Position numbers and translations under genes: made by a program | Assembly: GCA_029891345.1 (NCBI GenBank) | Contig: CM056998.1 | Coordinates: forward strand, 172,694,332 to 172,758,331 | Direction: 5' to 3' | Source of the DNA: Dryococelus australis | Taxonomy: Eukaryota > Arthropoda > Insecta > Phasmatodea > Phasmatidae | DNA length: 64,000 bases | In this document: piece after piece, positions 4,241 through 63,483 of the stretch | Numbering within the stretch: the first letter of the stretch is position 1 | Layout: the number at the start of each line of letters is the position of its first letter | Notes under the pieces: generated by a model | What the model was told of the DNA's origin: nothing | The model's database searches: none | What the model saw: the letters and a program-made list of their open reading frames with translations, nothing else

Positions 4241-5037
4241 ATTATAATTCAGAAATTCGACTGCTGACATCCCATGTTGATGCTGTGAACCCTACTTCAG
4301 TAACGCATTTGGTTGTAGGATAGCCTCAGGTACGGTGTTTCCTGGTCCTGAGTCACGGGTAAAGCCCGTGCAAATTTATAAGTCTCGTTATTGTTGTATA
4401 TATCTCCGATTTGATCTGCAACGATAATGCTGTCAAAGAGACTTTAAGGTCTTCTTATCACCTAGGCTTTTAAACTTTACTGAAAATGATTTGCACCCGT
4501 GTAGAGGAAAGTAGTCTCACTATTAATATTAGTTGTTTGTATTATAGTTAAGTAGTTTCATTACTATTGGCAATTTTGGATTTAAAATTCACAAAAGTGT
4601 ATACCAAAATCGTTTGGGAATTAGCTTTTTCAAACTAATTGAAAATTACACACAGTTTCTTCGTGTGTATACCATACTGCATAGTGTTATAGTCAATTCG
4701 ATATACTTTTGGGGTACAACTCTAGTTTATTGAAGGAGCGGAAGTTCTGTGGTTCTCTGATTTCGAAGCCTTGGCGGTATTCATAATTACATATTGAGGA
4801 AGGGGAGAGGCGTGTTCTTAGGTAAGGATATCAACAAACGCGAGTTGCTCAGTCTAAGTTTTTCGCTTAGAAGTTTTATTTCTTTCTTTTTATAAATCTG
4901 GTTCTGATAGAAGAAATCGTAGGCCTCTAATTATCACAGACATTCATGAGTGTGTGGTGATTGCTTGACATGTTGATCTAGGCTGTTCATGCTAAACTGT
5001 GCACATGTGAAAACCCTGATTAATATCTTCTTGAATG
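4241..5037. other. Non-coding, no feature seen
   Basis: Roughly 800 bases of AT-rich DNA. I see no open frame of note, tandem repeat, terminal inverted repeat or RNA gene. Confidence 0.5.
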
Positions 5038-5270
5038 GCCATTGTATACTATTCCACAAATGTAAAGTTAAACATTGTCATGGACCTGACCGCTATATTC
5101 ATTCGTCGGACTATTAAATGAAACTGTTAAAATATTAGAAAGGTATATATTTTATAAATTGGCTCATTCTTACATTTATATGCACTTAAAAAAAACAGAA
5201 AGCAAAGAAAGTTATTCCACTTTTAACAGATGCTTACCTAACAATTCCAGTTTAACGTTACGACATTGAG
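5038..5270 (-). mobile_element. Decayed MITE, family A relic (reverse)
   Basis: The order of diverged blocks ('gtatactattccacaaatgtaa', 'aacattgtcatggacctgacc', 'tattcattcgtcgg', 'gaaactgttaaaatatt', 'ggctcattcttacattt', 'cagaaagcaaagaaa', 'acagatgcttacc') follows the reverse complement of the family A MITE found intact at 20559-20977 and 55895-56317. The terminal inverted repeats are missing or unrecognisable, so this is an old internal fragment. Confidence 0.55.
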
Positions 5271-6670
5271 GTTTTATCTATGTTTCTCTGGTAGTATATT
5301 GGCAGGTCTCGATGTCGATCTCGACAGTCAAATTTCCTGCCTATTGGGAGACGCAGTTTGAAACGATCGGGAGCAAAATATGCCAAAATAGGTATTGTAA
5401 GCACACTATCGTTTCACCACCTCACTGGATCGGCAATGCTCGGGTTTTATCGACTGCCCCACCACAGCTCTCTTCCCCTCCTTCCCGTATGTTCAGGCAG
5501 GCAACGTGACGAATGCAAACACATGCTGTGCCTGTAATAATGTATGACGAATGTAAAGCTATTCTTACAAACTGTTCATTCTAAATGGTTTGTTAATGCT
5601 GAAAAGTACTAATACATATATTCATTAAGTATACATTGTCATATATAAAACGCGTCAACATTCCATGATAATTCGTTACGCAGTAGTCCCATCAAACAGT
5701 CAATGTAAATAAAGTTCACTGTGTTGTACATAGCGAAATGTATAGAAGATAATACGTAAAATGTCGTTAAAGTAAATTATTATGAAGTTTGCCTACAAAA
5801 TTACGTCAGGCCTAAAAACAACAAATCTTGTATAACAAAAAGTGTTCAATTGTTTATTGTTGGAACGTACGAATTCCCGTTACCACTACAGATGTAAAGT
5901 GCTTCGTACACAAAAACTACGTAGCTTACATGTGTATTCATAAAATGACAGAATCTGCCAATTTAATTACTTTGATTACTACACGTAGTAATATAAATTG
6001 TTTTTTATATATTATAATGAGAAGTAAAAAAAAAAAAAAAAACTATTGTCAGCCGAGCTCCGAACCCAAAACATAGTTCTCTACGTACACCAGACACGCG
6101 ACGTAACCACATTTTTTAGTTGACTTATCGACCGATACATTTGCCGTTGGACATAGCGTGGGTGACGTTTGACAGCGTGAGTGTATTTTGCAGTGTGACG
6201 AGCTCAAGTGGTAGACCTACCTGACGACAAATCCACGACAACCGCTCGGCCATCGCTAAACTTGAAAACTTGACTCACGATACACACAAATACATTCTTC
6301 ATACTTCTGAACACGCGTTGAGACAATTAGACGCATGTGATAATGTTCCGCAAGTACTATAACCTTCTATATGTTCTGCATTTCGTTTAAGAAGGGCGGG
6401 ACCATAAAGTTCATGCCCGTTTTCTATAAAGACGGCCACAGCGCTTCTCACCTGCCATGTTGAAATTACGCTTTCCCGACCGGGAACGTAGCTTTCGACA
6501 ACGCATTAGCTGCCGTGTGCTCTCGATCGTTTTCTCGCCAGAATGTAGAAGTGATCTTTAACTTGGAATACCAAACACAGAAAATAAGACTTAAATCGTT
6601 ATTTCGTGATCGGGAGTTGCGTTCCGATAAACTTAGAGTACACCCCATGTAACTTCTTATCGTCCGTCGT
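5271..6670. other. Non-coding; possible minus-strand tRNA-like SINE at ~6027-6265
   Basis: Mostly featureless AT-rich DNA. On the minus strand about 6265 to 6240 reads GCGATGGCCGAGCGGTTGTC, very like the D-arm/A-box of tRNA-Ser/Leu. The minus strand later reads GGGTTCGGAGCTC (B-box-like, about 6050-6064) and ends in a long T run (an A run at 6027-6043 on the plus strand) suited to Pol III termination. The A-to-B spacing is far too long for a normal tRNA, so this may be a rearranged tRNA-derived SINE or coincidence. Confidence 0.3.
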
Positions 6671-6913
6671 TATACGCTGTGCATGGTAAAGTGAGCATTT
6701 TTGACGCACTGGTTAATTTTTCCTTTTAGCCATTTTTTTTATCCTTTAACCAGCCTTTTTAAATAAATATTAGCAGGTAAGTAATAAACATCGTATGTAT
6801 ATTCCACCGGAATCGGAAGTTAACGTCTAAGGCTAAAATAAAATATTTTTATTGGATATTATTCGAAACGAGAGGGCTTTCAAAAGTGCTCACTTTACCG
6901 TGAACAGAGTATA
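6671..6913 (+). mobile_element. MITE family B, complete copy
   Basis: A 243-base non-autonomous element bounded by TA. The left end reads TATACGCTGTGCATGGTAAA and the right end, reversed, reads TATACTCTGTTCACGGTAAA, giving imperfect terminal inverted repeats of about 30 bases that include GTGAGCA(C/T)TTTTGA. The interior is non-coding. Homologous copies lie at 52395-52633 and, nested in another MITE, at 53715-53951. TA target and short inverted ends suit Tc1/mariner-type mobilisation, although the transposase family is inferred. Confidence 0.8.
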
Positions 6914-6949
6914 CCAACTTGACTGGGCGCACCCAAACAGTGTAGTTAC

Positions 6950-7640
6950 GAGTGAAAATGTACGCATGTGAGGACAGTGATATTTTTAAAAGTTTGATTC
7001 CAATGGCCGTCAACCGTAAACAGCCTATAGTAGTCTGAAAGTTGTTTCCAAGGGGGGCTGCAATTCCAATACGCGCGCCCCTTGAAACGCTCCGGCTCGG
7101 ATTCTGTCTCGGAGAGCAGATTGGTGTAAGATCTGCGCGTGCTGCTCTGGAGGAGGGTTGGGGGATGTTACGAGCAGATGGGGCCGGGGATAGCTGCGTG
7201 TTTGTTACCGGATTGTCGGCGCACAAGTTTTTCGGCGGCAGCCAGACGCCTGTGCGTAACCTCACACCTGATCTCCCCCCCCCCACCCCTCCTCATAACG
7301 GATAACAAGCTCCAAGCCAATTTGCACGCCGCTGCCGCGTCCTTATTTGCACTAACAGGCGTTCTCGCGACATCGGCTGGAAGGTCGCTGTAGTGTTAGT
7401 TTGAGGAGGAGGGGGGGGGGGGTGTATCCGTGTCGCGCTGCAATCACGGTCGCGCGCCTCGTGTTCCCTTATCTAGCAAGCGTCATCGGATGCTCCGCTG
7501 ATTGGTCCGGCCATCTCCTCCTGTCGCGCCCCCTTCAATACCCTGTGACTATTTTCCTGCCGGCTCTCTTCTCTCCAGGTGTGGGAGCAAGCGACCGCTA
7601 AGGGCGAGATTGGAGCGCCAATAAAACCCCCCGTGGCCTT
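6950..7640. promoter_or_regulatory. CpG-rich block, candidate promoter/regulatory region
   Basis: About 700 bases of GC- and CpG-rich sequence in otherwise AT-rich DNA, with long C and G runs (7277-7286, 7411-7422), an inverted CCAAT box (GATTGG near 7501) and two ATTTGCA octamer-like words near 7318 and 7347. Open frames on both strands here reflect low AT content and have no recognisable product. Islands like this in insects often mark a promoter or a first exon, but no TATA box or downstream exon is identifiable. It ends where a SINE begins. Confidence 0.35.
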
Positions 7641-10139: not shown

Positions 10140-10410
10140 ATATCCATCAAAACAGTTCTTGTAAAGCCTCATTTCTCCGCCATTTTGCAAAATAGCCTCA
10201 CATTAAATATTAGGCCTACAGTTTTTATGCCGTATATCGGGAAACAATCGACCGATTTCTTTCAAATTTGGCGAATAAGTTGTAACTACTGTGGTAGGCC
10301 ATATTAATTCATACGTCTTAAGAGTGTAAGTTTCTTATTTTCTGAATGGCGCCTATACAAATATTTTAGCTTAGTGTGCTACATCTACGAAACTTTGTAA
10401 CAAATTCAAA
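10140..10410 (+). repeat. Degenerate satellite-like unit, left flank of 135-bp array
   Basis: Carries the same phrases as 831-2412 ('ccattttgcaaaatagcctc', 'tttttatgccgtatatcggg', 'cgaccgatttctttcaaatt', 'gctacatctacgaaac'). It leads directly into the young 135-base tandem array, whose unit is itself cut from this repeat. Confidence 0.6.
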
Positions 10411-10950
10411 TTTAGCTTTGTATATTTTATCTATGACAATCATCGATTGTACTAATACAAACACTTGTTATACTCCATTTATGAAGATGGTCACTGAAGG
10501 TTTTGTGACATATCTCGAGGACGAATCTACCGATTCATACCATAATTTAGCTTTGTATATTTTATCTATGACAATCATCGATTGTACTAATACAAACACT
10601 TGTTATACTCCATTTATGAAGATGGTCACTGAAGGTTTTGTGACATATCTCGAGGACGAATCTACCGATTCATACCATAATTTAGCTTTGTATATTTTAT
10701 CTATGACAATCATCGATTGTACTAATACAAACACTTGTTATACTCCATTTATGAAGATGGTCACTGAAGGTTTTGTGACATATCTCGAGGACGAATCTAC
10801 CGATTCATACCATAATTTAGCTTTGTATATTTTATCTATGACAATCATCGATTGTACTAATACAAACACTTGTTATACTCCATTTATGAAGATGGTCACT
10901 GAAGGTTTTGTGACATATCTCGAGGACGAATCCACCGATTCATACCATAA
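10411..10950 (+). repeat. Tandem array, 4 x 135 bp, almost identical copies
   Basis: Four exact-length units start at 10411, 10546, 10681 and 10816, each opening TTTAGCTTTGTATATTTTAT and closing near GATTCATACCATAA. The first three appear identical; the fourth has one difference (GAATCC for GAATCT). Because 135 is a multiple of three, a frame stays open through the array (199 codons including flanks), but it begins at GTG and encodes only the 45-residue repeat, so I read it as non-coding. Near-perfect copies inside an otherwise very old repeat point to recent unequal exchange, or an assembly effect. Confidence 0.9.
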
Positions 10951-11620
10951 TTTCACGCAAGTATTGCCACTGTAGCGTATGTAGAATAACATGTGTTACA
11001 TGCGGCAAGCATATTTAAATAGTGTTTACTAAATCATTTTGATTAATTTGTTATATCTATGAAACATTTCAACAAAATTCGAACAAATTTCGTACGAAAA
11101 CAGTATTAATTAGAAGCATCATTAATGCATAGAGAGTTCCTCTTTCGCCGGATTTTTCGTAAAGTAGTTTTATGTGAGTAAATGGAACATTTTGCCATGT
11201 TTCCAGAATAATTGAACTAATTTCCACAAATGTTTGCACTCTCACAGAAGGCTACGCGAAGTTACATGATTTAAATTGGGTAAGACAATGATTTTCAAAT
11301 GTTGGCCATATAAATATTTTGAAATGTTTGGCATATCTAATCAACAATTTAACAAATTAATTCAAACATTTTATGCTGACAGTATATACTAGAAAAGTCG
11401 TGTACTTAGCCTCTTTTCAAGCAATTTTGAAATATAGCCCTGTTTAAGCAAATAAGGTTTTTATGCTTTATCTCGGAGACCAATCAACTGATTTCCACCA
11501 AATTTTTCGCACTAGTAGCGTTATTGTAGGTCATATAAACGTATGTGTTTTTTAGTGGCTAAAACACTTATTTTCAAAATGATGGCTGTATAAATATTTC
11601 ATGTTAGTACACCCTATCAT
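10951..11620 (+). repeat. Degenerate satellite-like array, right flank
   Basis: Further diverged units of the ~270-300 bp repeat ('ccacaaatgtttgcactctc' near 11225, then 'ctcggagaccaatcaactga' near 11473, about 255 bases apart). Old and interrupted; no coding potential. Confidence 0.55.
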
Positions 11621-20191: not shown

Positions 20192-20558
20192 TATACAATG
20201 TTCTCTGTAAAGTGAGCAATTTTGAATTCAACCTTTGAAAAAGTCAGTGACCTTACTTACATATGTTTTACGGCCACACTGACTGGCGTGCACTTAGTAA
20301 AGTTGCTATAGGATGTTCATGGTAAAGTGAGCACCTTTGAAAGCCCTGCTAAAGTTCTACTTTCTTGCCCATTATGTAACCTTCCACCACATGTAAACAA
20401 ACATTGCCATGTGACTGCCATGTGATTACCACATGTCAAAACCAATGATTACATTTCAGGACTGGTTAAATGTTTTGGACCCTATGTGTTGAACATTTAT
20501 AACTAATTAGATAATAATTGTAGTACACAATACTCATGAAGTGTGTAAATGTGTGCAA
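20192..20558. mobile_element. MITE family A, left part interrupted by a reversed A end
   Basis: 20192-20305 is the 5' end of a family A MITE (GTTCTCTGTAAAGTGAGCAA, then 'caacctttgaaaaagtcagtg' and 'cacttagtaaagttg'). At 20308 a second A terminus begins in the opposite orientation (TATAGGATGTTCATGG, 'gaaagccctgctaaag', 'aaacattgccatg') and decays before 20558. The junction 'aagttg-cTA' is the same internal site used by another insertion at 53643. Confidence 0.65.
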
Positions 20559-20977
20559 GGGCTGTTCACGATAAAGTTAGCACTTTTGAAATCAATCTTA
20601 GAAAAACGTCACTGCCTCTGCCTGCATACACTTTAACGGGCGCACTGAGTGACATGCGCCCAGTAAAGTTGGTAACGATGAATGGAAGTCAGTTCCATAT
20701 CTTAACGTAAAAAAAAATGTCAGGTAACCGTTTGTGATATCTTGTATTATTTCTTTCACTTTCTGTTTTTTAATGCATCGAAGTGTTAAAATGAGCAGAT
20801 TTACAAAACATTTTTTTTCTAATAACTTCACAGTTTCACTTGACCGACGCATGAATAAAGTAACGAGGCCCATGGCAATGTAAATTTTGTATAAGTCGGA
20901 AGAATATACAAATGTCTATACAAGTAGATTGTGAGCAGAGCTTTCAAAAGTGCTCGTTTTACAGTGAACAGCCTATA
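20559..20977 (+). mobile_element. MITE family A, complete copy
   Basis: About 419 bases with terminal inverted repeats: left GGGCTGTTCACGATAAAG, right (reversed) TATAGGCTGTTCACTGTAAA. The interior includes 'aacgggcgcactgagtgaca', 'gcgcccagtaaagttggtaa', 'gaccgacgcatgaataaagt' and 'aagcagagctttcaaaagtg'. No coding capacity; the short open frame across it is incidental. TA-bounded ends and shared termini with family B suggest one Tc1/mariner-like transposase moved both. Confidence 0.8.
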
Positions 20978-25280: not shown

Positions 25281-26235
25281 CGATTGCATATCGCCAATGA
25301 ACTGCATGCAGCTGCCAGATGCAACTACCACCATCGCAAGGTCATAATTTGTGCGATGAACAATCTGTTTCAAGGCGACCTCGTCTAAATGATACCATAT
25401 GCTCAAGTCAACAAAGGCTACAAATACATGTTAGCAGTCATCGACGCCTATAGCAAATTCGTCTGGGCCAGGCCAGTCAAGTCGAAGATGCCTGTGATGT
25501 CACCATGGCCATCACCGATGTGTTGAGCGAAGGACACATCTCAGCCAATTTGCAAACCGACCAGGGCAAGGAATTCTACAATGCAAAGTTCAAGGCCCTG
25601 ATGAAGAATCTGAACATAAATAATTATTCCACATACAGTAATCTCAATGCTTCAATTGTCGAGAGGTTCAAAAGGACTCTGAAGGGCAAGATGTGGACGC
25701 ATTTCGCAGCAAGTGGTAACTACAAATGGCTTGAGCTAGTGCCGAAACTTGTATGCGAGTATAATGCTAGAGTGCGCGCGACCACTCTCATGAAGCTCGA
25801 AGATGTCAAGGACGACTCCCTGGTTCGGATTGTGTATGCTATTTTGGGGAGGAAGGGTCCACACAAGCTTAAAGCAGATATCAGTGACCTGGTACGCATC
25901 TCCAAACAGAAATGTGTCCTCGAGAAAGGGTTCACAGAGAATTGGAGTCCCGAACTGTTTCGTGTGTGTATTATACATAACTATGCTCCAAGGACCTACT
26001 ATCTCGAAGATATGAACAACATACCCATCCATGGCGGTTTCTACACCAAGGAGATATGGCCTACGAAGTTTCCAGATGTGTATTTAGTGGTCAAGGTGCT
26101 GAAACGGCGTAATGGAAGGGCCTACATCAAGTGGTGGGGTTTCCCTGCCGCTACAATTCCTGGGTCGCCGAGGTGGACATCGAGCGGTGAACATCGAAAA
26201 AGACTAATAGACCTGTATATAGTTTATTATATGTA
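25281..26235 (+). pseudogene. Fossil Polinton integrase with chromodomain
   Basis: An rve (RNase H-fold) integrase. An N-terminal zinc-binding-like segment lies at about 25298-25370. A 'YKYMLAVIDAYSKFVW' block carries the first catalytic Asp (about 25420-25470). 'LQTDQGKEFYN' carries the second, and 'NASIVERFKRTLKGKMW' carries the Glu. The C terminus reads KVLKRRNGRAYIKWWGF, a chromodomain-like fold usual in Polinton integrases. 25505-26320 is open for 271 codons, the longest non-repeat frame in the window. The gene as a whole is broken. Confidence 0.85.
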
Positions 26236-26466
26236 CAATGAATTTTATGTAAAAAAAGATATGTTGTGTTTTATTTCAAAAAACCTTTCCCCATTCATAT
26301 ATAAGAAGAAAAAATTATAAATAAATCTAAGTAATTTGCAGGAATGGTCGATGTCACCATTCGGTATAGGCCTATATAAGGTGGCATAATCGGGTTGTCG
26401 CACAAAGGTGAGACACAAACTACAAAACATGGAGGACTGCACCTAGCAAGATGAATGCCTCTCAAC

Positions 26467-26638: not shown

Positions 26639-27689
26639 ATGAATGAAGAATCAAAATGGCGGAATGATTATATGTGGGGGAAGTATAAGCGAGGGAGTCA
26701 GTCGTCTGCTGGATTCGAACAGAGGTGAGTAATAGGTGGTGCGGGGCGAAAACCTCCAGAAATGTAAGTTTTTTAATTAAAATATTTAAAAAGATTTTTG
26801 AAATGAAAATTTCCTTAGGAAAATTTTGAAGGAAAATCTAACATTTAGAGGAAAAATTGAAAAATGACTGCTGGGGTTAAAGAATTCTTAATAAACCAAT
26901 TTTTTAAACAATTTTTTAACAAAAAAATTTCTTGAGGGATACTTTGAGGGAAAAAGGGAAAATTCGAGGGAGAAAAGGGAAAAATGACTGCTGTCGTTAA
27001 ATACTTTTTAATTAAGAATATTTTACATAAAAATTTTTCAAACAAATTTTTTACGAATTTTTATAAATTTCGAAACGATTTTTAAATTAATTTTTTTAGT
27101 GATAAATTTTATATAGATTCTTAATATTTCCAGTGAATTGTTGATTGAATTGTTTTTAATTTTTATTATTTTTTAGATTTGTTTGCAATTTTTTCGATTT
27201 TTGGGGCATGGTCATCGGGGTCAATGTCAAGGTCACTGGCATTCAAGATCGTGGTTGGGTGACGTAACAAGATTGCGGCCGGGCGAATCAGGATCCAATG
27301 CCCGATGCCCTTGGCCCCTAATCGGCTATATAATACTACTGACAGTGACAGTTTTCATTGGTTGATCTCGAAAGTGCTTACTTTATCGCGAAAAATCGTT
27401 ATCTGTATGTGAAATTGGATTCTGTCTATACATTGATAGCTGTTTTACACTGTGGCATATTTTCAGTTCTGTACTTTTTTTTTTTTTTTTACTTTTCTAA
27501 TAAATTAGCTGGAAACAGTGTGACAAATTCCAAATAAATTCTCATTATTACTAGGTTTTTTTTTTGCGTTGAAATGTGTTCGGTATTGACTTTTTTTTAT
27601 CATAGGTAGTTTAAAAAAAACATTTCAATTAGCAATGAACAAGTTACCTCTTCGAGGACGCAAGCTTTTACGAATACAAAAAAAACATT
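26639..27689. other. AT-rich; imperfect ~117 bp direct duplication and one MITE end
   Basis: The phrase 'gaaaaatgactgctggggtt' near 26858 recurs as 'gaaaaatgactgctgtcgtt' near 26979 with similar flanks, a diverged tandem duplication. 27368-27395 ('gatctcgaaagtgcttactttatcgcg') resembles an isolated right end of the A/B MITE family. A TATA-like 'ctatataata' lies near 27324. Nothing else is supportable. Confidence 0.4.
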
Positions 27690-34225: not shown

Positions 34226-35632
34226 ATTTTTTATGTTATTGTGGAGGGACTTCCTTGCAGTTTACCGTCTTGTATGCTACTGAGGTAATGACATATTTTT
34301 GCGAAATGAAATGATCCAGAAATATGTAATGAATTAAACGAGAAGAGACATGAATATGATTTACGACAGTTTCCTAACCTGCCGTGTATGTTAGTAATGC
34401 CAAACAAGAGAAACTGGTGGACAAACAGAATATATTAAGAACGACCGTTAAGAATCCAATTAAAACGAATGTAACAAGTTAACAGAATTCAAAACACACA
34501 CCAATATATAAATTACACTACTTGAATTACACACGAGACAAATAAATAAAAATTAATCAAACCAATGATGCTGTACACGACAAAACTATAATGAATGGAC
34601 ATGACTATCCTGGTGTACTAGACACACAAGCACCTCTCCCAAATAAGGTACTTTAAATGTTGTAAAACATGTCCACTCAGCTGGGAGGTTCGTGAAGTAA
34701 TGACTCCAATATAGGATTTGCAGCAACTTATAAGTTGTGTATTGGGAACAAGCAGAGGCACCATGTGATTGTAGACCAATGTTATGGCGGAACACCTCGA
34801 AATTAAAATAACTAAAAATTACATCACAAATCAATAAATATGTTTTGTTTACGAATTCACCGGTTAATATTGCCAAATAAGGTAATCCCAACAGCGTACT
34901 AGACACACACCCTCTCCCTGAACATAAAATGTTTGAAATGAAATTTAAAAAATGGGAGCAAGTAGTGACTCACAGGGGAAAAACGTACAGTTTTCTAAGA
35001 ATAAAAGTTTTCTATACACAAGCTCCATTGAAAACGTATCACAGTGAACGTTTAAAAACTCTTGTAGCAAAAACAGTTAGACTAGCTACGGAAATCGACA
35101 TCCCCGAATGTTAGCCGAATGTAAAATAGCATGGATTATTTTTAAAAATAATAGATGCACACAAATATCCAAATGGAGGAAACAGTTTGCACACTATTCA
35201 TACTCATTGTGATTTATACCTACAACGAAATGTTGCACATGGAATTTTAAACAATGTACATAAATGTCTTAACAGAAAAAAAATTATCGGTCCGAATAAT
35301 TTTAACACAACTCTCATCGAAAACTTATTGCAATAAAAGTTTAGCAAGTCATGTTGTTAACACTTGTTGAGGAATTCATGTATAATTTTATTTTCCGATA
35401 TTATTAGCGAAGGTTAAATATTTCGCACTGTATTTTACGAATACTAAGAGCGTAGTTTGAACTCTGACGAGATAATTGAAGAAAGTGATTAATGAGAATC
35501 GCGGCTAGCAGTCAGGTGTATGGTGGATCCGAAGTCCAGATATCCTCCATCGTCGGGCGACAGGCCGGCAGCTTGCCGAACTTAGGTGGTGAAGTGCTAC
35601 TTCTTAGAGCAAAGGCATGTATCCATGTATGC
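34226..35632. other. Non-coding; short direct repeats at ~34613 and ~34894
   Basis: 'gtgtactagacacacaagca' plus 'ctctccc' (34613-34640) recurs as 'gcgtactagacacacaccct' plus 'ctccc' (34894-34920), and 'ccaaataaggta' appears near 34639 and 34872. A 61-codon plus frame at 34929-35114 has no recognised homolog. The rest is featureless. Confidence 0.4.
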
Positions 35633-48480: not shown

Positions 48481-50019
48481 GTTAATAATTTTATAGTTTT
48501 TCTTTATATAAATGGCGATTATATTGTCAAGTGCGTTTCTAAGGTCGGTCTACCAGAGTTAGGATTTCAAATACCGTTGTGTTTCCAAGTGTGTTGAATT
48601 TCCGAAGGTGTTCTCCCGGGACTTAACAGAATTTGCATTAAAAATAATTTATTTTCAGCAAGTAATCTCACGCTAGGAAGGTGTGTTATTTATTTTTCCC
48701 AAGGAATTAAAATTGTGTATTAATAATTTAAAAAATGGCATTGAGGTAAGTTTTTCGGTATCTATGTCTGTTTCCATTTCTTTAATTTCATTCCAATCTT
48801 TCCCTTTTACATTTGAGAGCCGAGGTGGATGTGCGTGACATACATGTATGTCTAGTACGCTATTGTGTTTGGTTAAAATTTAATTACTTTGTATCACTTT
48901 GTTAGCAAGATTGAATGTTTACGTACTGCCATAGCTTTTCGATGGAAGATTTGTTAAGATTTTTTGGACCGATAACCTGTGTTGTATATACACTGTGAGT
49001 AAATAATTTCGTACTTGGAATGTGGTAAATCTTAGTTCTATGTTAAATTATTTCATTTGAAACATTTTGTGAAATGGAACTGTTTAAGTGGTAGATATTT
49101 ATTTATTTAATGTCTTTGTATGTAGTTTAAAATTTCATGTGAAGAGTTTTGTGTGTTAAGTGAAATAATTTTTGGGAGTTCTTCATATTTCGTTTGGCAT
49201 AATTTAAATTAGCAAGGAAATCATTTTTGGCTTCGTTATAGGTATAATTCAGAATGCAACTTCTCTTCATTTTAGAAATCTTTATTTGTCCATGTCAACT
49301 GCAAGTGCTAAATTGTTCCATATTAGATCATTATATTGTTACATTCCCATTTTTAAGTTACCTAATCGTTATACACATATATATTCCACGCGATACAAGT
49401 CTCGCTAAATTTAACCCGAGTTTTATTGTTGGTTAAAAAGTGAATTATTTTCAACAAAGGGAAATTTATTCGCAGCAGTAAACTATGATACACAATGCAA
49501 GTGAAAATATTGTATTAAGAAGTTAAAACATGGCATTGGGGAAAGTTTCCTTTATTTTCATTTCAAACATATAATGTTAACTTCGTTGTAGGTATAATTC
49601 ACAATGTGTATGAATAGTGTGGTAAGGTATTGGGATTATCGTCCACTGGAAAATATAAACTAGTAGATTAGAAAACAGGACATTTTTATTGATTTGTAAC
49701 ATAAATTTTTGTTATCATAATTTCGAGGAGTTCCGCTATAACATTGGTCTACAATCAGACGATATAGAATATATACCTCATTTGCGTAATCGTAGTTGCT
49801 TTTCGACCCTGTCTTAAAAGCTCTACAAATTATGTAAATACTATAATTATTTTTCTCTTCTTAATGCATTTACAAACAAAATGTTATTTTTAATTTTTTT
49901 TATAGCTAATTTATTTTCCAATTATTAGTCTCAACTAATTTTTTGTTATTATTATGTATCTAAATTATTTATATATTCATTTATGCATTCGTGAGACTAA
50001 AAAGACGAAAAATGTGCAT
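48481..50019. other. Non-coding, no feature seen
   Basis: AT-rich. Two diverged phrases recur ('aaaaaatggcattgaggtaag' near 48730 and 'aaacatggcattggggaaag' near 49527; 'cttcgttataggtataattc' near 49231 and 'cttcgttgtaggtataattc' near 49580), so an old roughly 350-800 base duplication may exist. No gene. Confidence 0.4.
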
Positions 50020-52394: not shown

Positions 52395-52633
52395 TATAGA
52401 CTATTAACGGTAAAGTGAGCACTTTTTGAAACCCTCTCATTTATAATAACAGACAATAAATTCATTTCATTGTAGCCTTAGAGGTTAACTTTCGAGTCCA
52501 GTGAAATATATACACTCTGAGTATTACTTACATTGCAATATATATTTTAAAAATTGGTGCAAGGAAAAAATGGCTGTTAGGAAAAAAGTACCTAGGACCT
52601 GAAAAGTGCTTACTTTAGCGTGAACATACTATA
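52395..52633 (-). mobile_element. MITE family B, copy 2
   Basis: About 239 bases bounded by TATA. Left tip TATAGACTATTAACGGTAAA; right tip reversed TATAGTATGTTCACGCTAAA. The internal order ('ttagaggttaactttcgag', 'aatatatacactctgagtat', 'aaaaaatggctgttagg') is the reverse of the copy at 6671-6913. Non-coding. Confidence 0.7.
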
Positions 52634-53112
52634 CCTCAAATCCTGTATACAGTGTTTATAACAGTCGACTTGGAAGAAAAACAGTTTAGTGTTGTTACAC
52701 GGAGAGGTTACTGCTCACTTTTGGTACGCGCCCATCCTCATTTTCCCCTCTACCATAGAGACCTGCCAATTTCAGTTTATTTCTGGGCGTCGGGCTATTC
52801 TTGTATACACATAGCATTAGGGATTGCACGAAACAATATTTTTGTCCATACTGCACCATAAGTATGGCGCTCTGCATATATCGGGACGGATAAAATTTGA
52901 TTTGTGATTGAGATTTTGGTCAGAAACCGTTCGTGAGGCTTCAGGATGTAGTGACAACACCAAATGAAAACTTCGTGAGTTATAATTGTATGCCCTTGTA
53001 ACTCTAAAATTTCGTGTCCTTTGTTAATCCGGAGCAGCTGGTGCAGTAACAAGTAAGTTTTGGTCTTAACTGGGTTGTACTTCATCACTTCAGCTCTTTT
53101 CTTCTGTTCAAC
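52634..53112. other. Non-coding, no feature seen
   Basis: Mixed composition. A 109-codon minus frame (52795-53124) has no recognised homolog and runs into a MITE end. Confidence 0.35.
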
Positions 53113-53173
53113 TAGGCTGATCACGATTAATCGAGTAATTTTGAAATCAACCTTTGAAAAATGTCACTTCCCC

Positions 53174-53598
53174 TATATGCTGTTCACGGTAAAATGATTA
53201 TTTCGAAAGCCCTGCTTAAGATCTACTTGTGTACACAATGTGTATTCCTCTGCCTTCTGAAAAATTAACATTGCCACGGACCTTATCACTTTATTCATGC
53301 GTCAGTAGGTGAAATTTTGAAATTGTTGAGAAAGTAAATAATTTAAAAATCTGCTCATTTTTAAATTTAGATGCATTACGAAAATCAGAAAGAGAAAGCA
53401 GTAATTTAATTTATGACAAATGGTTACCCAACACTTTTTATTCAATTTTATCATATGGGACTGCTTTCCATCCATCATTACCAACTTTACTGGGTGAATG
53501 TCACTCAGTGCGCCCGTTAAAATATATGCAAGAAGGCACAGTGAGTTTTTTCTAAGGTTCATTTCAAAACTGCTCACTTTATCGTGAGCAGCCTTTAC
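53174..53598 (-). mobile_element. Family A MITE, reversed, nested at first site
   Basis: Complete copy in reverse orientation: left tip TATATGCTGTTCACGGTAAA, right tip reversed TAAAGGCTGCTCACGATAAA. Interior in reverse order ('gaaagccctgcttaagatct', 'ttattcatgcgtcagtaggt', 'accaactttactgggtgaat'). Inserted in the outer copy at the TA just before 'cctgcgtgtattttga'. Confidence 0.8.
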
Positions 53599-53642
53599 CT
53601 GCGTGTATTTTGACGGGCTCACTGAGTGGCATGCGATCAGAA

Positions 53643-54311
53643 AAGTTGGTAAAGGCTGTTCACGATAAAGTGAGCACTTTCGAAATCAAACTTTGAAAAA
53701 ATTCATTGCTCCTACATACTCTTCACTGTAAAATGAGCACTTTTGACGCCCTAGTTACTTTTTCTTTTCAGCCATTTCTTATCAATGAACAGTCTTTTAA
53801 AATAAATATTGCCGTGTAGGTAATAAACGCAGTGTGTATATTCCACTGCACTCGGAAGTTAACGTCTAAGGTTAAATATAATTTATTTATTGACTATTAT
53901 TACAAATGAGAAGGCTTTCAAAAGTGTTCACTTTACCGTGATCAGCGTATACCTGCGTATATTTTAACGCGCACCCTAATTGACATGCGCCCAGTTAAGT
54001 TGGTAACGATGGATGGGAAAGTAGTTCCGTATCTTAACGTCGAATAAAAAGTATTAGGTAACCATTTCTGTTAACTTAATAATTTCTTCGGCTTTCTATT
54101 TTTTTTTAATGCACCAAAGTGTAAAAATGAGCAGATTTGTAAAATATTTACTTTTATAATAATTTCCCAGTTTCATTTGGCCAACGCGTGAATATTGTGA
54201 TGACGCCCATCACAACGTTAATCTTACATAAAGTGGAAGAATACACAACGTGTATACAAGTAGATTTTAAGCAGGGCTTTCAAAAGTGCTCATTTTGTAG
54301 TGAATAGCCTA
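53643..54311 (+). mobile_element. Family A MITE nested at second site, itself interrupted
   Basis: Left tip AAGGCTGTTCACGATAAAGT at 53643 and right tip ending 'gtagtgaatagcctata' at 54311. Its two parts, 53643-53714 and 53950-54311, are separated by a complete family B MITE. It was inserted at the TA in 'gttggTAacga' of the outer copy. Confidence 0.8.
53715..53951 (+). mobile_element. MITE family B, innermost copy
   Basis: Between target TAs at 53713-53714 and 53950-53951. Left tip CATACTCTTCACTGTAAAAT, right tip reversed TACGCTGATCACGGTAAAGT; interior matches 6671-6913 ('tttcttttcagccatttctt', 'ggaagttaacgtctaaggtt'). It sits at the position in its family A host corresponding to the first site used by the reversed A copy. 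Confidence 0.8.
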
Positions 54312-54639
54312 TAACGAGGGAGACAAAGTAGTTCAATGCTTTAACGTCAAATTAAAAGCGTTAAGTTAAAATTTGTGAATACTGAAATTGTTTCTTCTGG
54401 TTTTCGTTCTTTTTAACACCCGCAAGTGTTACAATAAGCAAATTTGTAAAATGTTTACTTTCCTAATAATTTCACAGTTTTTCTTTATCGACGCATGAAT
54501 AAAGTGATCAGACCACCGACAGTTGTAAACACATATTCATATGGCGGAAGAATACACAATGTCCATACAATTAGATCTTAAGCAGGTCTCTTAAAAGTAC
54601 TCAGTATATGCTTGTAAATAGTCATACGGAGCGTGTCTC

Positions 54640-55090
54640 ACAAGTTGCGGGTCCATCGCAAAAACAAATCACGCCAATTTTTTGCCTGCATTCACAGCTC
54701 TGGAAATTGCCAGTAATGTTTTATTTTATTTACGTTCCGATGTGAACGCAGCTTAATTAATTTCAGGCCTTTAACGCAGTTAGCTGCCGTTTGAAGTGAT
54801 TCACGCCCGTAGATTAGCCGTGGCGCGAGGCGCCCGAGCGCCGGATGGCTGTTGTCATGAGTTAATAAAGGTAATGGAGCGGCGGTGGATTCAGGCGCGC
54901 TGCAAAGTTAATACGTCCAAAGCTGGAGCAGCGCGGCGATGTCTTTGATGTTCGCTTATCCCGCTCCGGCCGGCTGGAGCCCTGCTGGAGTCCGGAATAC
55001 TCATCTCCGCACCCTGATTGGCCGGCGACCATTTCGCCCGCAACAATGACTTGCTGTCCATGTAGCAAATTTGCTGTTAATTGAGCACGT
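54640..55090. promoter_or_regulatory. GC-rich block with homeodomain-type sites, candidate conserved regulatory element
   Basis: A sharply bounded CpG-containing block in AT-rich DNA. It carries several TTAAT/ATTA words (GCTTAATTAATTTC at 54749, GAGTTAATAAAGG at 54858, AGTTAATACG at 54906, GTTAATTGAG at 55075), an inverted CCAAT box (GATTGGCCGG, 55014) and a near-palindromic 'gcccgagcgccgg' patch. No open frame resembles a protein. The mixture suits an enhancer or promoter of a developmental gene, but this is inference from composition and motifs alone. Confidence 0.35.
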
Positions 55091-55894
55091 TTACAGCCAA
55101 CGTTTGAAAGAAAATCAGTAGCTCTAATTGCACATACGTTTACGAGAGCACCGAGTAGATTAATAACTATAGTAATGTTGGCAGCGAAATAGAAAAAATT
55201 AGGTCAATTCTTTAGAGTCCATCAGAAACCATGTAGACGGGTAGAGGGGTCATTTGGTAGTAAAATTAAGGAGTAGCCATGTTTGATTAACAGTCGAACA
55301 ACGTATCGTTTATGTGGTATGTTTACGTTTGTGTTGTTTTTGAGTACGCGGCTTATGATGATCATTTTTATTGCAACCATAACCATGTTGAAATCAGTAA
55401 TTTTCCGATAGAGTTTTACTCGTAAAATACAGTTTTAAATGTTTGCTTCATATTTAAGTCCAGATAGGTATTATTAATTTTCCTTTCGGATCGTTTTTGA
55501 AATGGCATAATTTGTTTTATCACGTTACTCTGGCAACGTACTTTAAACGCACGTGGTATTTGCCTCGTCTCGTAATAACTTAGGTTTTAGGTTTTAAAAG
55601 GCTAGTTAGTATCCCAGCGTGGGGCCGCCAAAGTTGGCTTAGGCTCAGAATACTTCGGTCATTTTAGTTTTCTTGAGGACTAGGGCGTCGAGATTGGTTT
55701 CCACTGTACGGATCTACGTAAAGAGAGAGTTTGAGTTCGTCAGCATTTCATCTGGATCAGAAAAAAAAAAAAAAAGACGCGCAGCGTTCTCAACGCCACA
55801 AAAAGAACCTGATTAGGAAACGTTAGGCGCAGAACTAAGTGGTTAATTTATGAGACTTGCGCGTACGAGTATTCCGTGGTATGCTAAATCTTAG
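55091..55894. other. Non-coding, no feature seen
   Basis: AT-rich with an A run at 55761-55775. No supportable gene or repeat. Confidence 0.4.
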
Positions 55895-56317
55895 TATAGG
55901 CTGTTCGCGATAAAATGAGCACTTTTGAAAGACCTGCTTAAGATATACTTGTTTACGCGTTGTGTGTTCTTCCGCCTTATGTAATATTAACATGACCCTC
56001 ATCACATAAATCATGCGTCGGTCAAGTGAAACTGTGAAATTATTAGAATAGTAAATATTGTAGAAATCTGCTCACTTCTAAACTTCGACGCATTAAATAA
56101 TACACAAAGGAGAGAAATAAATTAAGTTATCACAAAAGGTTACTTAGCACTGTTTGTTCGACGTTAATTTATGGAATTACTTTACCTCCGTCGGTACCAA
56201 CTTCACTGGACACACACGTCATTTATTGCGCCAGTGAACATATACATGCATGCAAGGGCAGTGACTTTTTCCCGAGGTCGATTTCAAAAGTGCTCACTTT
56301 ATCGTGAACGGCCTTTA
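55895..56317 (-). mobile_element. MITE family A, complete reversed copy
   Basis: Left tip TATAGGCTGTTCGCGATAAA, right tip reversed TAAAGGCCGTTCACGATAAA; interior in reverse order ('gaaagacctgcttaagatat', 'aatcatgcgtcggtcaagtg', 'accaacttcactggacacac'). About 423 bases, TA at both ends, non-coding. Confidence 0.85.
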
Positions 56318-57625: not shown

Positions 57626-57820
57626 TAAAGGCTGTTCACGGTAAATTAAACACTTTTGAAATCAACCTTAGAAAAAAGCCACCGGCCCTGCCTGCACATA
57701 CTTTAACGGGCGCACTGAGTGACTTGCGCCGAGTACAGTTGGTAATGATGGACGGAAAATAGTTACACTTATTAACGTCGAATAAAAAGTTTTAGGTAAC
57801 TATTTGTGATTACTTAAAAC
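57626..57820 (+). mobile_element. MITE family A, 5' half
   Basis: Left tip TAAAGGCTGTTCACGGTAAA followed by 'aacgggcgcactgagtgact', 'agtacagttggtaatgatgg' and 'aggtaactatttgtgattac', then homology stops. The right half is missing. Confidence 0.75.
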
Positions 57821-61900: not shown

Positions 61901-62472
61901 AACTTTGATTCATATATTCCTTTTTTACAGTTTTCAATTCTCTGCGCAAACTTGATGTTACAATCTGCCATTATTTCACACTCTGCAGGCATTTAGGGGC
62001 CTGGTAATCATTCAAGAGTTGACTCCAAAAGAGTTTAATTAGCCACGAGCTGACTGTAGTCAAATTTCTGATTTTTGTTTCCGCACGTCACCGCTTTTCC
62101 GAAATCTGTCGTCTAAGACTTGCAAGCAAGAGGGTTATTCTGAGAAATAGTATATTTCGTCGTTATATGAAATATGACCGAATACAATAAAAAAGTATGT
62201 GAAATTAGTGGACAACGTGGATGATATTTTATCGAATTCTCTTTAACTCGTGCGATCTCTATCAGCAGGAATCTCACCCTGACACTTCCGCTTTGACCTG
62301 TAAAGTTCAATAAATTACAGGCGTACTGTATACGTTTATGGGTAGTGTTTTATTCATTAACGTCCAGGAATATTGGCAAAGTGGTTGTGGGCTGAGTCAA
62401 CTAAATGTCATTTCTCATTAATTATTAAGTATCGTGGCGACCACGTTGGGCATTCGTGAACGTGGTCTTAAT
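58901..62472. other. Long non-coding stretch
   Basis: About 3.5 kb, mostly AT-rich. Short frames (59342-59629 minus, 60361-60615 plus, 61596-61808 minus) are not recognised. A CA run lies near 60990-61007. 61186-61215 ('ctttgaaaccttgctaaagt' and on) may be a worn tip of a family A MITE. Nothing else is supportable. Confidence 0.4.
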
Positions 62473-63120
62473 CTACATACTTATCCCGCGAGCCGGGGCT
62501 CTACGTGTTTGCCAGGCATAGGCTGTGCCAAGTCCAACTCCGTTTCTATTAGTCTACATACTTATCCCGCGGGCCGGGGCTCTACGTGTTTGCCAGGCAT
62601 AGGCTGTGCCAAGTCCAACTCCGTTTCTATTAGTCTACATACTTATCCCGCGAGCCGGGGCTCTACGTGTTTGCCAGGCATAGGCTGTGCCAAGTCCAAC
62701 TCCGTTTCTATTAGTCTACATACTTATCCCGCGGGCCGGGGCTCTACGTGTTTCCCAGGCATAGGCTGTGCCAAGTCCAACTCCGTTTCTATTAGTCTAC
62801 ATACTTATCCCGCGAGCCGGGGCTCTACGTGTTTGCCAGGCATAGGCTGTGCCAAGTCCAACTCCGTTTCTATTAGTCTACATACTTATCCCGCGAGCCG
62901 GGGCTCTACGTGTTTGCCAGGCATAGGCTGTGCCAAGTCCAACTCCGTTTCTATTAGTCTACATACTTATCCCGCGAGCCGGGGCTCTACGTGTTTGCCA
63001 GGCATAGGCTGTGCCAAGTCCAACTCCGTTTCTATTAGTCTACATACTTATCCCGCGAGCCGGGGCTCTACGTGTTTGCCAGGCATAGGCTGTGCCAAGT
63101 CCAACTCCGTTTCTATTAGT
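62473..63120 (+). repeat. Minisatellite, 8 x 81 bp
   Basis: Eight exact-length units start every 81 bases from 62473. Each opens CTACATACTTATCCCGCG, contains the short hairpin GAGCC-GG-GGCTC, then GGCATAGGCTGTGCCAAG, and ends TTTCTATTAGT. Units 2 and 4 have GCGGGCC where the others have GCGAGCC, and unit 4 also has TTTCCC for TTTGCC. A 253-codon frame stays open because 81 is a multiple of three, but it begins at GTG and has no ATG in its repeat, so I read the array as non-coding. Confidence 0.95.
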
Positions 63121-63411
63121 CGATTTAGAAAGCTATTTTTTTCTGAAATCAATGTACCTAGAAGTAAAACATATGCGTCGTTGACCTTACGCTAACTATG
63201 CTAAATATACTTGTTATACGGATATTCTAATAAAAACTTTTCATTGACTTTAATTTTTTTGTTAATGGTGAAACTATTTGTTGGTTAGTAAGAACCGTAT
63301 ACAATCCTCACTCATATTAAATCAACAACTTAAAAAAAAACAAATTCATAGAGAAATTGTACGGAAGAGTCACGTATTTGTTCGACTTTTCCAATATAAT
63401 AAGATAATGTT
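63121..63411. other. Spacer between minisatellite and tRNA gene
   Basis: AT-rich. The A run at 63331-63340 is a T run on the minus strand about 75 bases past the tRNA 3' end and could be a distal Pol III terminator; no closer run of four Ts follows the tRNA. Confidence 0.4.
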
Positions 63412-63483
63412 TGCGTCGGCCGGGAATCGAACCCGGATCAACTGCTTGGAAGGCAACTATGCTAACCATTACACCACCGACGC
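63412..63483 (-). tRNA. tRNA-Gly(UCC)
   Basis: A complete 72-base tRNA on the minus strand. The acceptor stem GCGTCGG pairs with CCGACGC followed by the discriminator A. The A-box region is TGGTGTAATGGTTAGCAT. The anticodon stem GTTGC/GCAGT holds the loop CTTCCAA with anticodon TCC (63448-63450 on the plus strand as GGA). The T arm CCGGG-TTCGATT-CCCGG contains the B-box GGTTCGATTCC. It closely resembles animal tRNA-Gly(UCC), has no intron and no mismatch in the acceptor or T stem. It supplies the decoder for GGA/GGG codons. It looks functional. No CCA is encoded, as normal for eukaryotes. Confidence 0.96.

Follow-up and report, generated by a model that had tools for sequence, protein, structure and literature searches.

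A nest of four MITEs and the use of two homologous TA positions within one MITE family

MITEs lying within other MITEs are a known kind of structure, and such nesting is ordinary. In carrot, DcSto1 contains DcSto2 or a Tourist-like MITE, and in different plants independent DcSto insertions are described that coincide in position or nearly so (PMC3695323). MITEs of rice and maize commonly insert into members of their own family according to Jiang and Wessler (2001), as cited by the carrot study and by a pithovirus paper (PMC3695323, PMC10664404), the latter also taking from that work a figure of 11% for the rice MITEs that lie in multimers (PMC10664404), and a guayule paper states, from its reference 35, that MITEs target MITEs of the same and of other families (PMC5907723). 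A “safe haven” idea has been discussed for MITEs (PMC3695323). The Drosophila Bari elements, which have AT-rich targets, are described as having nested insertions and deletions without obvious positional preference (PMC4877112), whilst some families of plant LTR retrotransposons favour older copies of their own and show a weak preference for palindromes (PMC6911290). The matches listed from searches of the open-licence literature on nested or self-inserting MITEs do not describe repeated insertion at a single homologous TA within a MITE.

Here we describe a nest of four MITEs from two families, A and B, within a 64-kb stretch of DNA (the window). We consider, with a probability of roughly 0.85, that it arose by TA cut-and-paste insertion through one transposase acting on a shared TIR and preferring a short TA context, perhaps TACC.

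Structure of the nest

The nest occupies 53113-54626, has the layout A{A reversed; A{B}}, and was most likely built by cut-and-paste insertion. The outer copy of family A is present in three pieces, recovered by the A model (built from five full copies, the outer copy included) as three nhmmer matches at 53114-53188, 53591-53652, and 54312-54623, with model positions 1-80, 56-117, and 115-419 respectively and the E-values given in order below; where neighbouring matches overlap, the alignment has run on into the inserts. Trimmed back to the TA junctions, the three pieces are contiguous and together make 428 bp, which agree with a consensus built from the other four full copies at 327 of 421 columns (77.7%), with gaps in 8 columns. 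Both the rejoining of the outer copy once its inserts are removed and the layout as a whole were part of the original prediction, and the profile matches and junctions bear them out. The nest comprises:

53113..53175, plus strand: outer A, piece 1, left TIR to the site-1 TA (nhmmer E 5.7e-16, junction read)
53176..53595, minus strand: inner reversed A, complete, in site 1 of outer A (nhmmer E 3.9e-126; TA at 53174-53175 and 53596-53597)
53598..53651, plus strand: outer A, piece 2, site 1 to the site-2 TA (nhmmer E 2.7e-14)
53652..54311, plus strand: inner forward A, in site 2 of outer A (TA at 53650-53651 and 54312-54313)
53652-53714 and 53952-54311, plus strand: the halves of the inner forward A, split by B (nhmmer E 9.8e-17 and 1.1e-108)
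53715..53949, plus strand: B1, a complete B element in site 1 of the inner forward A (B model E 1.1e-73; TA at 53713-53714 and 53950-53951)
54314..54626, plus strand: outer A, piece 3, site 2 to right TIR (nhmmer E 2.4e-78; TA at 54625-54626)

The three inner elements, a reversed A of 420 bp, a forward A of 423 bp without its B, and a B of 235 bp, all have TA at both ends. The complete reversed A is held at site 1 of the outer copy, which reads CCCC[TA]CCTGCG, and the forward A at site 2, which reads GTTGG[TA]ACGAGG, with B cutting the inner forward A at that copy's own site 1, CTCC[TA]CCTGCG. A TA duplication had been predicted at every junction, and this holds for all three inner elements and for the right end of the outer element, where TA is clear at 54625-54626, but not for its left end, where AC (53111-53112) precedes TAGGCTG, so that either the duplication has decayed or two terminal bases have been lost. 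The stretch is rich in repeats, and related repeats wrongly joined in assembly are a conceivable source of the structure. We regard such an artefact as highly improbable, given that the inner elements join their hosts exactly, with a TA at either side, and that pairwise identity among the five full A copies, at 69-80%, is too low for confusion in assembly.

Families A and B and the order of insertion

Profile searches of the window, with element bounds refined by reading the sequence, returned 12 copies or fragments of A (about 420 bp when complete) and three copies of B (about 235 bp), the latter also forming the B model. Outside the nest, these are:

20557..20975, plus strand: A1, free-standing A, comparison copy (nhmmer E 3.6e-129)
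55897..56315, minus strand: A2, free-standing A, comparison copy, TA on both sides (nhmmer E 7.3e-127)
57628..57818, plus strand: A5, left part of A (model 1-190), both sites uninterrupted (nhmmer E 5.1e-49)
52397..52631, minus strand: B2, free-standing, TA on both sides, empty site TTCT[TA]CCTC (B model E 2.5e-69)
6673..6911, plus strand: B3, in site 2 of a reversed A remnant (B model E 6.6e-73; TA at 6671-6672 and 6912-6913)
about 6620-6670 and 6914-7027, minus strand: the reversed A remnant hosting B3 (A model E 1.2e-13, ending at 6912)
20194..20308, plus strand: left-end remnant of A, stopping exactly at the site-2 TA, 20307-20308 (nhmmer E 3e-18, model 6-116)
20309..20416, minus strand: right-end fragment of a reversed A, at site 2 of the preceding remnant (nhmmer E 2e-14, model 313-419)
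4980-5290, minus strand: A fragment (A-model profile search)
27337-27399, minus strand: left-end fragment of A (nhmmer E 2e-7)
55077-55226: weak A match (E 1.2e-7)

The downstream side of the remnant around B3 has a score reached by none of 2000 shuffles, and the reversed fragment at 20309 has a single junction, its far end being lost.

Family A ends in repeats like WAGGCTGTTCACGATAAAGTGAGCACTTTTGA and family B in repeats like TACGCTGTTCACGGTAAAGTGAGCACTTTTGA, with TA outside both. A TIR core is common to the two families, a relationship that the original prediction, whilst naming both, had missed; this 30-bp core, allowing at most 9 mismatches, matches 20 times in the window, compared with once in total over 20 order-1 Markov randomised windows. 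Pairing of the TIRs extends over 28 of 32 positions in A2, 26 in the inner forward A, and 21 in the reversed inner A, and over 24 in B1 and 28 in B3. The B model also cross-matches ~100 bp at the right end of A (best E 8.7e-9), and A and B may therefore share a little more than the TIR. Like the three inner elements, B3, B2, and A2 are flanked by TA at either end; the duplication is not preserved at A1, nor at the left end of the outer copy. The Stowaway TIR begins CTCCCTCC. This start is not seen in either family, with A ending AAGGCTG or TAGGCTG, and B ending TACGCTG, TACTCTG, or CATACTC.

Both families are short elements with TIRs and a target-site duplication and without a coded transposase, as is characteristic of MITEs, with the TA duplication being that of Tc1/mariner elements. 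MITEs also typically reach a high copy number in the genome; the 64-kb window has 12 copies or fragments of A and three of B. None of the 32 stop-to-stop ORFs of at least 110 aa in the window matches a transposase family at E 0.01 or better, and the two ORFs overlapping the nest (52795-53163 and 53302-53685) have no Pfam match at E 0.01. Searches with three TIR or internal patterns against viral contigs, and with one against prokaryotic genome contigs, gave no matches, a result of little weight given the viral and prokaryotic content of these collections, and the letters of the A and B TIRs, compared with the texts of papers, matched one unrelated cell-biology paper. Their common terminal repeat and TA duplication make it probable that a single transposase moved A and B; we infer a Tc1/mariner-like, TA-targeting enzyme, encoded elsewhere, that would have recognised the shared TIR.

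The window as a whole has a GC content of 36.7% and only five ORFs of at least 150 aa by bacterial start rules, and appears to be eukaryotic DNA. An open frame of 288 codons at 25454-26320 has the appearance of an integrase core with a chromodomain-like end behind it, which we take to resemble Maverick/Polinton integrases; it has no Pfam match at E 0.01, with weak integrase matches among PDB sequences (E 0.15 and 0.2). A frame on the minus strand at 32467-33117 matches DUF7869 at E 1.4e-5, its 25.2 bits falling short of the curated cut-off of 26. Two tandem arrays are present, one at 62468-63121 (81-bp unit, 8.1 copies, 98% matches) with a 257-codon open frame giving only spurious-looking Pfam matches, and one at 10409-10953 (135-bp unit, 4.0 copies, 99% matches) with a repeated open frame that matches several unrelated Pfam families, has no passing stretch, and is probably not a gene. 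The only Rfam match at gathering score is a tRNA-Gly (tcc) at 63412-63483 on the minus strand, within an open frame reading GNRTRINCLEGNYANHYTTDA, which may be part of a tRNA-derived repeat. A dispersed inverted pair of 106 bp, 82% complementary, lies at 34766-34871 and 49652-49757, with no match to the A or B model above noise.

The nesting places the outer A first in the order of insertion, and divergence agrees, as was predicted. Its leave-one-out identity to consensus is 77.7%, compared with 84.8-87.0% for the other four full copies, corresponding to a JC divergence of 0.265 against 0.143 for A1, 0.170 for A2, 0.164 for the reversed inner A, and 0.161 for the forward inner A; the layer-by-layer comparison proposed at the outset thus finds the outer copy most diverged. 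In the five-copy tree its terminal branch is 0.297 (0.229-0.382), compared with medians of 0.116-0.174 elsewhere (reversed inner A 0.168, A2 0.174, A1 0.116, and inner forward A 0.151, with a range of 0.104-0.203), and is the longest in 198 of 200 bootstraps, although membership of a diverged subfamily could also cause a long branch. The two inner A insertions cannot be ordered relative to one another, their medians of 0.168 and 0.151 overlapping.

The nest had also been read as a record of successive bursts, which these data do not bear out. The divergence of the inner A copies is close to that of the free-standing A1 and A2, and the internal branches of the tree are near zero, so that a single main expansion of A, later than the outer copy, would be enough. 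The branch of B1, 0.097 (0.050-0.152, a three-point estimate), is the shortest of the three B branches, and is shorter than that of its host, which fits insertion of B after the host had formed, though the two intervals overlap and the families differ. The predicted order of B after its A host is correct insofar as B entered an already-formed A sequence; however this was not necessarily the last event, since A{B}, at 660 bp, could have moved into the outer A as a single unit.

Two TA positions used repeatedly in family A

The five nested insertions in the window fall in two homologous TA columns of A, sites 1 and 2, at ~61 and ~115 bp from the left end of the element. The site 1 column has been used twice, in the outer A (by the reversed A) and in the inner forward A (by B), and the site 2 column three times, in the outer A, the remnant near 7027, and the fragment at 20194; that the three inserts of the nest share two homologous TAs of A was overlooked in the original prediction. 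Both junctions are present in four of the five insertions, with the reversed A at 20309 having one. The site-2 TA occurs in all eight A copies, three of which have been hit, and the site-1 TA in three of the eight (outer, inner forward, and 20194), two of which have been hit.

Further candidates for nested insertion were tried and set aside. For B2, placement inside an older A gained no support, with four flank comparisons reached by 759, 446, 216, and 112 of 2000 shuffles, and by 516, 375, 348, and 48 of 2033 window positions; the two positive controls of this flank test each lay above all 2000 shuffles, and were reached by 3 and 0 of the 2033 positions. For the remnant at 20194, whose left flank ends GTTGGTA like site 2, the outcome was borderline, the score of this flank being reached by 40 of 2000 shuffles and 14 of 2033 positions. 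In the A fragment at 4980-5290, which breaks off close to site 2, the final 20 bp fail to align (1226 of 2000 shuffles reach the score). The fragment ending at 27337 is in register with the site-1 TA, however no TIR follows and it was not counted as a nested insertion; the unrelated sequence after this TA is possibly a further insertion by another element.

The full copies hold 31 (A1), 35 (A2), 31 (reversed inner), 39 (forward inner), and 33 (outer) TAs. With uniform choice among the TAs of each host, the two remnant hosts being assigned the TA sets of full copies, the probability of at most two columns being used is 4.8e-5 when all five insertions are counted, 0.0011 when only those four with two junctions are, and 0.029 for the three of the nest, values that are optimistic given that the window was picked for a nest. 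The same bias applies to the placement of A or B elements in A-family DNA, found for five of 15 (P 5e-4 to 7e-4), where such DNA accounts for 5.1% of the window and contains 4.8% of the TAs.

Among the nested junctions, four have the context TACC (GGTA on the other strand) and the fifth reads GCTA. In the outer copy two of 33 TAs have this context and both were hit, and in the inner forward A three of 39, one of which was hit, giving P 1.5e-4 for the three insertions of the nest, for a motif chosen after the sites were seen. A third GGTA, present in A1, the reversed inner A, and the inner forward A, is absent from the outer copy, so that only one known host tests TACC/GGTA as the sole cause. 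In the whole window 386 of 5522 TAs have this context, as do four of the 11 distinct target places, namely both sites, the empty site of B2, and the left flank of the remnant at 20194; it is absent at the ends of A1, A2, A5, and the outer A, and at the ends at 7027, 4979, and 27399, the last three being read by eye. TACC/GGTA as the whole cause was rejected, the motif being post hoc.

The seven target places without this context suit a nest that is real but whose site reuse is coincidental, with any TA used and older copies struck at random, as do the small number of events (five in one window, three in the nest) and the selection of that window. The low probabilities for five and for four insertions, together with the fact that in the outer copy the two TACC/GGTA TAs were hit and no others, nevertheless make coincidence unlikely. 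A short target preference appears the likeliest cause of the reuse: the transposase would prefer TAs in a short context, perhaps TACC, which A would offer at two well-placed sites, with later copies landing in older ones as a result.

Shared positions might instead reflect descent, if an A bearing an insert had been amplified whole and recombination or gene conversion through the shared TIRs had then swapped the insert. A tree of the first 123 columns splits the interrupted copies (outer, inner forward, 20194, and 7027) from the uninterrupted ones (A1, A2, A5, and the reversed inner A) with support of 0.857, and the common TIR of A and B is what such exchange requires. An older subfamily, exposed for longer, would however yield the same split, and the inserts, a reversed A and B at site 1 and a forward A{B}, a reversed A, and B at site 2, vary in kind and orientation, which speaks for independent events and leaves composite units improbable.

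The two sites bracket an imperfect palindrome, TACC...GGGCGCA...TGCGCCC...GGTA, extrusion of which might attract the transposase. The consensus, folded with a TA placed at site 1, folds better than its shuffles (z -2.42, with 5 of 200 as good), as does A1 (z -2.79, 3 of 200). No excess is seen in A5 (z -0.01) or the outer A (0.34), however, and none is clear in the inner forward A (-0.94), the outer and inner forward copies being the actual hosts, though decayed since, and guidance by structure seems to us quite unlikely. Returning to target preference, a more specific form of it is that A has two built-in landing sites bracketing the palindrome, which the transposase of A and B would prefer and which would draw new copies into old; we put this forward tentatively, as somewhat doubtful in its full form. 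If true, these landing sites would amount to a self-limiting habit sparing the rest of the genome.

Comparison with described systems

The nest gives a relative dating that is independently supported by divergence, whilst the recurrence at two sites, seen in one window, appears to be the part worth following. Were the preference to be genome-wide, A would be a natural test of whether DNA transposons come to attract their own later copies, the “safe haven” idea mentioned above, and were it to hold, it would define a 55-bp target segment in A that could be assayed.

Families A and B insert at TA, as Tc1/mariner elements do (PMC5481204), although no transposase is seen for them among the ORFs of the window. 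The carrot DcSto elements, which are of the Stowaway type, resemble A and B in their TA duplication and in the occurrence of MITE in MITE, including a related family, but have a different TIR (PMC3695323). In addition, the same-position insertions described for DcSto are at genomic loci, whereas those in A lie at homologous positions within different MITE copies (PMC3695323). The MITE multimers of rice and maize share with A the insertion into members of the same family, in plant hosts (PMC3695323, PMC10664404). In contrast to Bari, for which no obvious positional preference is described (PMC4877112), A has two recurrent TAs, and whilst the autoinsertion of plant LTR elements is that of retrotransposons with a regional preference, the insertions in A are at single homologous dinucleotides (PMC6911290).
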